The notes under the pieces were generated by a model. It saw only the letters and a program-made list of their open reading frames with translations. It searched no databases and was not told the DNA's origin. This document shows, in pieces, positions 3,025 through 13,194 of a stretch of DNA of 64,000 nucleotides. The translations under genes were made by a program, and so were the position numbers. This DNA comes from an uncultured Rubritalea sp. (GTDB taxonomy: Bacteria > Verrucomicrobiota > Verrucomicrobiia > Verrucomicrobiales > Akkermansiaceae), in NCBI GenBank assembly GCA_937923145.1, contig CALAJT010000015.1, forward strand, positions 110,892 through 174,891. The letters are read 5' to 3'. How positions within the stretch are numbered: position 1 is the first letter of the stretch; every line of letters starts with the position of its first letter.

Positions 3025-4875
3025 CTATTTCTCTATCCAAATTGAAAGCAACGCGAGATCTGCTGGAGTAATTCCTGAAATCCTTCCTGCCTGACCAATA
3101 GTAAGTGGTCGGATCTTTTCAAGTAACTGTCTCGCTTCGTTTTTTATACCATTAACTAGCTGATAATCAATCTCTTGAGGTATTTTTTTATGTTCCATCT
3201 TGGCAACACGTTCTACCTGTTTACGTTGACGCTGTAAGTGGCCCTCGTATTTAAAATCTGTTTCTATAATAGGCCAGAGCGCTTTGTCATACTTTTCAAT
3301 AATTTTGTCAGGTAAGTCTTCCCAGGAGTTTTCTGGTCGTCTAAACCAAAGATCCATTCGAGCTTGTTGATGAGTAGTCGCACGTACATATTCGGCTGCC
3401 TCTGCTAGCGTTTTGACTTTTTCCGCTGTGCGCTGAGCACGGTAATCCGTGACGATCCCCCGCTCTGCTGCATTAGCTGTCAGCCTTAAATCTGCGTTAT
3501 CTTGGCGTAATAATAATCTGTATTCTGCACGGCTAGTGAACATACGGTATGGCTCAGTACAACCTTTGGTAACCAAATCATCGATCATTACACCTATGTA
3601 TGCTTCATCTCTGGCTAAGATATAAGGAGCTTCTTCTTTTACTTTTAGCGCAGCATTTACTCCAGCCATAAGCCCTTGTGCTGCTGCTTCTTCATAGCCT
3701 GAAGTTCCATTAATCTGTCCTGCAAAATATAAATTCTCTACGCGCTTTGTTTCGAGTGTAGGCAATAACTGAGTGGGTGGACAATAATCATACTCCACCG
3801 CGTATCCAGGGCGAATGATTTCAGCGTTCTCAAGTCCTACTATAGAGCGAATAAAATCAAGCTGAACATCGTATGGAAGAGATGTAGACACGCCATTAAT
3901 GTAATACTCGTGAGTGTGTCGACCCTCAGGTTCTAGAAATACTTGGTGCCTTTCCTTCTCTGCAAACTTCACTACTTTATCTTCAATACTCGGACAATAG
4001 CGTGGTCCTACTCCAGCAATGTTACCAGAATACATGGCTGATTGATGAAGATTCTCACGAATGACATCATGAGTCTGTGGGTTAGTGTAAGTGATCCAGC
4101 ACGGCACTTGTTCCACGTGGAACTTTTCATCTCCCCATGGGTTTAGCGTGAAGATATCATTGGGCTCTTTGATGAGCGTATCATAGAGATACGAGAATTT
4201 CGGTATGGGTGAGTCACCTTCTTGTTTTTCGCATTTAGAGAAATCAATTGATCTACCATTTATACGACATGGTGTCCCTGTCTTGAATCGTTCAACTTCG
4301 AAACCGAGGTCTTTGAGGCTGTCACTAACAGTAGAAATAGCATCCCCCATTCTCCCACCTTTTTCATTTTTGAGACCTACATGCATAAGCCCTCTCATAA
4401 ATGTTCCAGCGGATAGGATCACCGTTTTTGCACCTATTTCCATCTGCAGGCTAGTTCTGATACCGCAGACCTTATCATTCTCGACAACTATCTCAGCAAC
4501 ATTCCCTTGGTGTAGATCTAGATTAGGAGTGCTTTCGATAAGGTGTTTCATTCTAAATTGATAGGCTTTCTTATCGCACTGAGCACGTGGCGCTCTCACT
4601 GAAGGACCTTTCTTTTGATTAAGCATTCTCCACTGAATAGCAGTCGCATCTGTGTTTAATGCCATAGCTCCACCAAGTGCATCTATCTCTCTAACCATGT
4701 GCCCTTTCGCTAGTCCACCAATAGCGGGATTACATGACATAGCACCGATGGTATCTAGATTTTGAGTAAGCATCGCTACAGAACAACCCATGCGCGCAGT
4801 AGCTAGGGCTGCTTCTACGCCTGCATGACCCGCCCCTATTACTAAGACATCGTAGTGTTTTGGATACTTAAACAT
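3025..4875 (-). CDS. mnmG: tRNA uridine-5-carboxymethylaminomethyl modification enzyme MnmG/GidA
   Basis: [22 protein letters not shown] motif; [15 protein letters not shown]; full-length GidA. Confidence 0.97.
4109..4124. promoter_or_regulatory. parS-like site (inside mnmG)
   Basis: TGTTCCACGTGGAACT; palindrome GTTCCACGTGGAAC at 4110-4123. Confidence 0.7.
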
Positions 4876-4935: not shown

Positions 4936-4951
4936 TGTTCCACGTGGAACT
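4936..4951. promoter_or_regulatory. parS-like site (upstream of mnmG)
   Basis: TGTTCCACGTGGAACT; palindrome at 4937-4950. Confidence 0.75.
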
Positions 4952-4974
4952 ATTTATTGTATTTTTATCATAGA

Positions 4975-4988
4975 GTTCCACGTGGAAC
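4975..4988. promoter_or_regulatory. parS-like site (upstream of mnmG)
   Basis: GTTCCACGTGGAAC, third identical 14-bp palindrome. Confidence 0.72.
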
Positions 4989-5049
4989 TTTATGATAAGA
5001 GTAAGAATTATCTTTGCTAGAGTAACTATCTAGTCTTATTATCTGTCAC

Positions 5050-11502: not shown

Positions 11503-12198
11503 CTATCTTCTACGTTTAGCTAATAGAGCTATTGAACCGAATGTTAAGAGTAATACTGATGAAGGTTCGGGAACTACATTACCTAATATCTGCACATTAC
11601 TCAATGAAATTTCTTCAGGTCCAGCATTTACTCTAACAGTAAAAGTGAGGCTATTAATTGCAGAATTATCAACACTCGTATCAAAAGCGAAATCAGATCC
11701 AAAGTTACTAGTTGGAAAAGTAGAGCCATTAGTAAAATCTGTGGCTGCTGTTGTTCCAGAAATTCCGTTACTATCAATGGTAACTCCAGAGCCTACAATA
11801 TGAATACCATCGCTAGCCGTAACAGCTCCACCTCCTGAAGCGTCCCACTCTAAAACACCTACTGTAGAGCCGTCAAAACCAAGGGTTATGTTTTCAAAAC
11901 CCAGTGTTGAAATAGAACCGTTTAGAGTAACTCTAATTTGTACACCCCCTGCGCTTCCACTTTTATCAGCAGTTATAGTACCCCCTGCGACTATAGAGTC
12001 ATTGTTTCCGCCAGTTTCAGTAAAGGTCTGGGTCCATATAGTATCATCAAAGTTCAACGTTGCAACAACTGCAGCTTTAGAGGTAATTAGTAATATTAAA
12101 GATACTATAAAGGAATAGGAGGTAATTTTTGTTTGCATAATTAATTTAAGTTTAGGCATTCGAACTTTAATAGTCCAAGTAAAATATGGTAATTTCAC
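11503..12198 (-). CDS. PEP-CTERM sorting-domain protein
   Basis: C-terminal VPEPSSVLLLTFGSIALLAKRRR; start may be an internal ATG (MQTKITSYS). Confidence 0.85.
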   Translation of the reverse strand: MKLPYFTWTIKVRMPKLKLIMQTKITSYSFIVSLILLITSKAAVVATLNFDDTIWTQTFTETGGNNDSIVAGGTITADKSGSAGGVQIRVTLNGSISTLGFENITLGFDGSTVGVLEWDASGGGAVTASDGIHIVGSGVTIDSNGISGTTAATDFTNGSTFPTSNFGSDFAFDTSVDNSAINSLTFTVRVNAGPEEISLSNVQILGNVVPEPSSVLLLTFGSIALLAKRRR

Positions 12199-12239: not shown

Positions 12240-12600
12240 ATTACTGTGGACAACTAAGAACAAACCAGCGTCTGCCTGTGAATAAACTGTGGATTGAGAA
12301 CAACAGTGAATATCTTTAATGCTAAAAACTACTTTTCCTCACCGCCACAAAGAGCTTACCCGCACACTTTACACACGGTGGAACACTTATTCTATCAATG
12401 TGGAACAGCTAAATTAGACACTTATCCACATGCATAAGAAGAAGAAATGTTTTCTAATTTTAAAAAGAAATATATTAACCTTGTTGGTAAGTTCCCTTAT
12501 TTAATGAGTATGTGATCATCTAATTTCAATTATTCTCTTTAAAATATTATAGAAATAAAAAGTCTCAATCAAAAGATAATTCAAGTTCATCAAACAAACA
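12240..12600. other. Candidate replication origin: DnaA-box cluster plus AT-rich stretch
   Basis: TTATCCACA 12422-12430 (+); TTATTCACA as TGTGAATAA 12277-12285 (-); one-mismatch boxes at 12245-12253, 12367-12375, 12399-12407; AT-rich 12440-12600. Confidence 0.45.
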
Positions 12601-12618
12601 CCAAGGAACCTAATCAAA

Positions 12619-13194
12619 ATGAAAAACAGAAATAACTTTAAAGCGATCGGTGCCAGCTTAATGCTCATTACAAGCTTGATTCCAAGCACAGTGCTAGCGC
12701 AGGCAACTCTAGAAGAAAGAAAGCAGAAAACAGCACAAGTAGCGAAGCTCTACAATATGGCAGAAAAAGCCTATAGAGATGGTGACGTAGACGTGGCTAG
12801 GGACACTCTACAAATCGTCCTTGCAGAGCAGCCAGGGCATCCTCATGCGATCGCTATGCTAAAAAGAATCAAACTCAATGGAAGCCAATTTGAGCTAGCT
12901 AAGAAAAAACGATTATTCAGTAGCGTGATCATTAAGGAGGTAGACTTCAAAGAAGTTAATCTAGCTCAAGCTCTTAAAATATTAAACCAACAAGTGATGA
13001 CTGCTTCTGGGAAGAAAGTGATTCCTAACTTTGTTATCACTGACCCGAAAGAGTATTTGGGAGATGAACGTATCGAATTACAGATGACAAACGTCCCAGC
13101 TGGAACGGTTTTAGATCATCTCATGAAAAAAACTAATACATCAGCAAAATTCGGCAAATATTCTATTACTGTTAGACCAAGATCTAGCCAATAG
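12619..13194 (+). CDS. Secreted protein with TPR-like segment and STN-like (secretin/TonB short N-terminal) domain
   Basis: Signal peptide; IIKEVDFKEVNLAQALKILNQQ...IELQMTNVPAGTVLDHLMKKTNTSAKFGKYSITVRP resembles the STN pattern. Confidence 0.6.
   Translation: MKNRNNFKAIGASLMLITSLIPSTVLAQATLEERKQKTAQVAKLYNMAEKAYRDGDVDVARDTLQIVLAEQPGHPHAIAMLKRIKLNGSQFELAKKKRLFSSVIIKEVDFKEVNLAQALKILNQQVMTASGKKVIPNFVITDPKEYLGDERIELQMTNVPAGTVLDHLMKKTNTSAKFGKYSITVRPRSSQ

Follow-up and report, generated by a model that had tools for sequence, protein, structure and literature searches.

The intergenic gap and its DnaA boxes

The window analyzed here, i.e., the whole stretch of 64,000 nucleotides, corresponds to bases 110892–174891 of contig C15 (174,891 bp) of an uncultured Rubritalea sp., whose genome amounts to 2.70 Mb in 53 contigs. 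The region of interest is a gap of ca. 420 bp found between two divergent genes: one on the minus strand (11503–12198), starting at 12198 or, alternatively, near 12138, and coding for a small protein with a C-terminus that resembles the PEP-CTERM motif, and one on the plus strand (12619–13194) that codes for a presumed secreted protein. Both lie outside the putative origin described below. The right-hand gene has homologues in 89 of the 117 genomes of the family, and in several of them these are located close to parS. The left neighbor varies, being ribD-like in Rubritalea profundi (G066) and in G041 and PEP-CTERM-like in the window (gene names assigned by reading the translations).

Positions within the gap are given relative to the consensus DnaA box closest to the presumed DNA unwinding element (DUE), TTATCCACA, at 12422–12430 on the plus strand (position 0). 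A second consensus box, R2 (TTATTCACA, 12277–12285, minus strand), is found at position −145, and both had been correctly picked out in the initial annotation. Among the boxes that it gave as having one mismatch, R1 at 12245–12253 (TTGTCCACA, minus strand, position −177) holds, and is aligned in seven species of the genus at 32 bp from R2. The other two are not one-mismatch boxes, since the stretch at 12367–12375 reads CTTTACACA, with three mismatches, and the weak minus-strand box at 12399–12407 (TGTTCCACA, position −23) has two. R3 at 12288–12296 (CAATCCACA, minus strand, position −134) also has two mismatches and had fairly been called weaker; the TGTGGATTG located there is conserved within the genus. 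Three weak or degenerate boxes had been omitted, all of them at positions conserved in relatives: TTGTTCTCA (12295–12303, minus strand, position −127), which overlaps R3 in a block conserved in the genus, TTACCCGCA (12356–12364, plus strand, position −66) and the converging TTACCAACA (12482–12490, minus strand, position +60). Near the discarded 12367 box the genus alignment shows a conserved element, ACACGGTGGAACA (12373–12385, plus strand). This element is among the best-conserved blocks of the putative origin, yet it is unlike a consensus DnaA box. In several other genera GTGGAAC can be seen at about the same place.

On the strand that reads TTATCCACA, the box at position 0 is followed by a trio-like tract of AAG triplets, TAAGAAGAAGAA (12435–12446), also omitted before, and then by AT-rich DNA (12447–12618) that, judging from duplex stability, would comprise the DUE and its flank. 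The AT-rich DNA reported next to the boxes is indeed there: the AT content of 12431–12490 is 78%, and no 101-bp stretch of the entire window is less stable than 12457–12557, which adjoins the boxes.

Clustering of the boxes

Exact TTWTNCACA boxes were not enriched over the whole window (7 vs. 5.0 expected), so that the signal lies in their clustering. Genome-wide we listed 96 TTRTYCACA boxes, and only at this gap were three of them located within 200 bp, the rest of the genome having at most two per 350 bp. A better cluster elsewhere, which had been named as an outcome contrary to an origin, was not found among them. A simple Poisson estimate from the genome counts gave a value of ca. 0.002 for such a three-box place anywhere. 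The orthologous gap of R. profundi contained five boxes in 256 bp (1,723,359–1,723,614), the sole such place among the boxes listed, with a Poisson estimate of ca. 1e-8. This cluster was the strongest in all samples and in the 400 kb around it, where it scored 5.5 against 1.5 for the next best.

Conservation of the layout

When the gap was aligned across the seven species, the box layout was kept, as an origin had been expected to be. The conserved blocks were the left boxes with their 32-bp spacing, TGTGGATTG, ACACGGTGGAACA, the right-hand box (12422–12430 in the window), the TAAGAAGAAGA tract that follows it, the AT-rich stretch and TAACCnTGTGnGTAAGT; the sequence outside these blocks was poorly conserved. 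We searched for the combination TTRTYCACA-N4-TAAGAAGAAGA in 84,980 genomes (257 Gb) and found 22 matches, all of them in Verrucomicrobiota, where ca. 0.5 were estimated by chance for the whole collection. They include Spartobacteria/Chthoniobacter, Terrimicrobiaceae, Haloferula, Luteolibacter and Rubritalea. A looser motif was found in 15 of 384 genomes of the phylum, with one match each, and its reversed control in none. Even so relaxed, the motif is stringent enough to leave many origins undetected, and other constructions may prevail in much of the phylum; in Akkermansia-like origins, for example, box and tract are further apart.

The boxes around the motif also keep their places. We examined 35 distinct Verrucomicrobiota loci, for which ca. 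0.06 boxes were expected per 5-bp bin. As these loci were picked by the box and the tract, only the other box positions count as evidence, and related loci among them are not independent. A minus-strand box was located at −156 to −143 (about −154/−145) in 28 of the 35, a plus-strand box at −66 to −64 in 16, and a minus-strand box at +58 to +63 in 20. As judged from sequence, the same box layout recurs in relatives across several orders of Verrucomicrobiota.

Position relative to dnaA, parS and the GC skew

Neither dnaA nor dnaN adjoins the boxes at the gap. As the initial annotation had stated, dnaA is not nearby: it sits on another contig (C10), where the surrounding 3.5 kb contain a single box, and in R. 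profundi it is located at 3.547 Mb, 1.8 Mb from the cluster. The parS cluster that had been described is real and lies 7.3 kb from the gap, with sites at 4109–4124 (TGTTCCACGTGGAACT, inside mnmG), 4936–4951 (TGTTCCACGTGGAACT, upstream of mnmG) and 4974–4989 (AGTTCCACGTGGAACT, C15:115865–115880). All genomes searched had sites of the TGTTCCACGTGGAACA type, between one and three each, clustered where there were several; those of the Akkermansia-like G038 are also at mnmG. The box clusters of the window's genome and its relatives were found ca. 2–13 kb from parS, and in 10 of 11 further genomes read around parS we found DnaA boxes and an AAG-type tract ca. 2–8 kb away, despite differing neighbor genes. 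The congener G032 counts against an origin at this place: reading 20 kb around its parS revealed no box cluster, and the 12619 homologue sits on a different contig and without boxes. The origin of this congener may have moved, or its consensus boxes may have been lost.

The cumulative GC skew, proposed before as a check, gave a mixed picture. In the closed chromosome of R. profundi SAORIC-165 (G066:C1, 4,159,517 bp), 20-kb samples had mostly negative skew as far as 1.45 Mb and mostly positive skew beyond 1.77 Mb; the reverse, terminus-like switch lies between 3.76 and 3.90 Mb. Contiguous reading of 1.44–1.84 Mb confined the switch to a noisy 100-kb zone (ca. 1.66–1.76 Mb) that contains the cluster, the opposite switch being about half a chromosome away; the raw cumulative minimum (1,662,794) is 60 kb from the cluster, which counts against it. 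The switch of G038 was sharp, all 2-kb windows being negative up to 973,000 and positive beyond, and the cumulative minimum (972,995) is only 103 bp from the first box (973,098), while dnaA is at base 385. On the contrary side, G036 had no clean switch at its cluster, and the skew of contig C15, short and noisy in a genome of 53 contigs, flattens near the gap with its raw minimum 14 kb off; over the 64-kb window the skew was too noisy to place a minimum. In three closed Akkermansia-like chromosomes (G028, G038 and G063) the records begin at dnaA, and the box cluster and parS are found ca. 1.0–1.2 Mb away.

Alternative roles of the cluster

The boxes could belong to a DnaA-regulated promoter or leader of the 12619 gene, with no origin involved. 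In Rubritalea-type genomes the cluster is in fact located some 160–430 bp upstream of the homologue of this gene. However, in other genera there is no cluster upstream of the homologue, a like box layout adjoins other genes near parS (e.g., the ribD-like gene in Akkermansia-like genomes), and G028, G038 and G063 have the cluster and no detected homologue. The coincidence of the skew switch with the cluster in R. profundi and G038 also speaks against a promoter. Since the cluster does not follow the gene, we rejected this role, which we regard as extremely improbable. A DnaA-titrating or regulatory site of the datA or DARS kind, with the true origin elsewhere within ca. 50 kb, would fit the fact that the skew of R. 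profundi resolves the switch to ca. 100 kb only. Against such a site, there is no rival cluster in the 400 kb around that of R. profundi nor in the window's genome, the skew minimum of G038 lies 103 bp from its cluster, and unstable AT-rich DNA adjoins the boxes. This explanation appears very unlikely as well.

A highly probable chromosomal origin distant from dnaA

The stretch 12245–12490 is almost certainly the chromosomal replication origin (oriC), its activity being predicted from sequence comparisons. It combines a box cluster above chance, adjoining unstable AT-rich DNA, parS nearby and conservation in relatives. The candidate put forward in the initial annotation is supported by the unique cluster, the conservation in the genus and the skew switch of R. 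profundi and G038. Together with the unique three-box cluster, the reading rests on the five-box gap of R. profundi and the coincidence with the skew switch there and in G038, the proximity of parS in relatives, the seven-species footprint kept despite a changing left neighbor, the phylum-restricted motif found once per genome, the fixed box positions and the least stable 101 bp alongside; in addition, for 12 gut bacteria, A. muciniphila YL44 included, read coverage supported origins placed by parS and skew, which were not always at dnaA (PMC10197239). The origin is recognizable by its layout though dnaA, its usual marker, is elsewhere.

DnaA would occupy the three strong boxes (12245, 12277 and 12422) and, together with the weaker ones in between, assemble into an oligomer that would open the AT-rich DNA from ca. 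12435 rightwards, a region comprising the AAG tract and reaching 12557. This tract and the converging +60 box would presumably take part in this step. Helicases would then be loaded at the opened DNA, with forks departing both ways, and the new origins would be segregated by ParB and SMC by way of the parS sites 7.3 kb off.

Polarity of the AAG tract

Within the origin reading, the AAG tract could be a DnaA-trio of the usual kind, as in the basal unwinding system already published. Its repeats have a period of three and a middle A; a short spacer separates them from the DnaA box that precedes them, and the AT-rich DUE lies beside them. The box is perfect and the spacer is 4, where the rule of that system allows up to two mismatches and triplets within 16 nt. 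However, published trios (3'-GAT-5') are opposite to the TTATCCACA strand, and here the AAG run is on the TTATCCACA strand, as it is in all 35 loci. The sequence of the E. coli oriC is one of three bases for the published polarity. The other two are the description of DnaA-trios on the bottom strand (PMC10201434) and the CTACTA printed in the order of the boxes (PMC7561715). On the canonical strand, three NAN triplets within 16 nt were found in just 4 of the 35 loci (11%) vs. 30% in shuffles; the window itself reaches two, and the published search rule, which asks for at least three, fails. After this strand test we dropped the standard trio, which had been our first reading and which we now consider rather unlikely. 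A trio run serving the +60 box was no longer than in shuffles at most loci.

In some genomes a CTTCTT tract mirrors the AAG next to the +60 box (e.g., G048), so that the DUE looks two-sided. The presumed DUE of G048 (G048:C1:2424650–2425050) is mirrored, with a box, TGAAGAAGAAGAA ... TTCTTCTTCA and a converging box, like two facing unwinding half-sites. We tentatively propose, as a possibility that we would not favor strongly, that Verrucomicrobiota have a variant unwinding element made of a box, a strand-reversed AAG tract and a converging box 60 bp off (with its own CTT tract in some species), where DnaA might act on the DUE from either side and assist in loading a helicase on each strand.

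Comparison with known origins and implications

In the oriC of E. coli the R1 box of an array is located beside an AT-rich DUE, away from dnaA and near mnmG. The origin described here is alike in being away from dnaA and near mnmG and in having boxes in both orientations beside the DUE, but it lacks the 13-mers, has an AAG/CTT tract instead and carries a converging box beyond the DUE. The incC of Bacillus subtilis (DnaA-boxes 6/7 and DnaA-trios), a system in which a single box can suffice, shares the succession of box, short spacer, triplet repeat and AT-rich DNA (PMC6669920, PMC8287927); the present origin differs in the strand of its triplets, which is reversed with respect to the box, in its distance from dnaA and in the recurrent converging box 60 bp past the first. 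Among Verrucomicrobiota, the origin of Methylacidiphilum infernorum was placed by GC skew 250 nt upstream of dnaA (PMC2474590), whereas ours is away from it. In a Hi-C study, parS and skew, supported by coverage, served to locate the origins of 12 gut bacteria, and the authors cautioned against relying on dnaA as an origin marker (PMC10197239). Among these bacteria is Akkermansia muciniphila YL44, by our reading of the same family, with its origin likewise placed at parS; the text of that study contains no DnaA-box anatomy. In the main texts of the papers searched we found no description of verrucomicrobial oriC anatomy. The origin is ordinary in kind, and its clade-wide architecture and non-canonical triplet element appear to be undescribed in the literature searched.

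The odd polarity of the triplets offers a direct test of the generality of the published unwinding model. It is common practice to rotate the chromosomes of this family to dnaA, and the evidence puts the origin ca. 1 Mb or more away. A misplaced origin affects growth-rate estimates based on coverage, origin prediction and the rotation of assemblies, including those of Akkermansia-type gut bacteria. With the motif, the origin can be located in draft genomes of several orders of Verrucomicrobiota.
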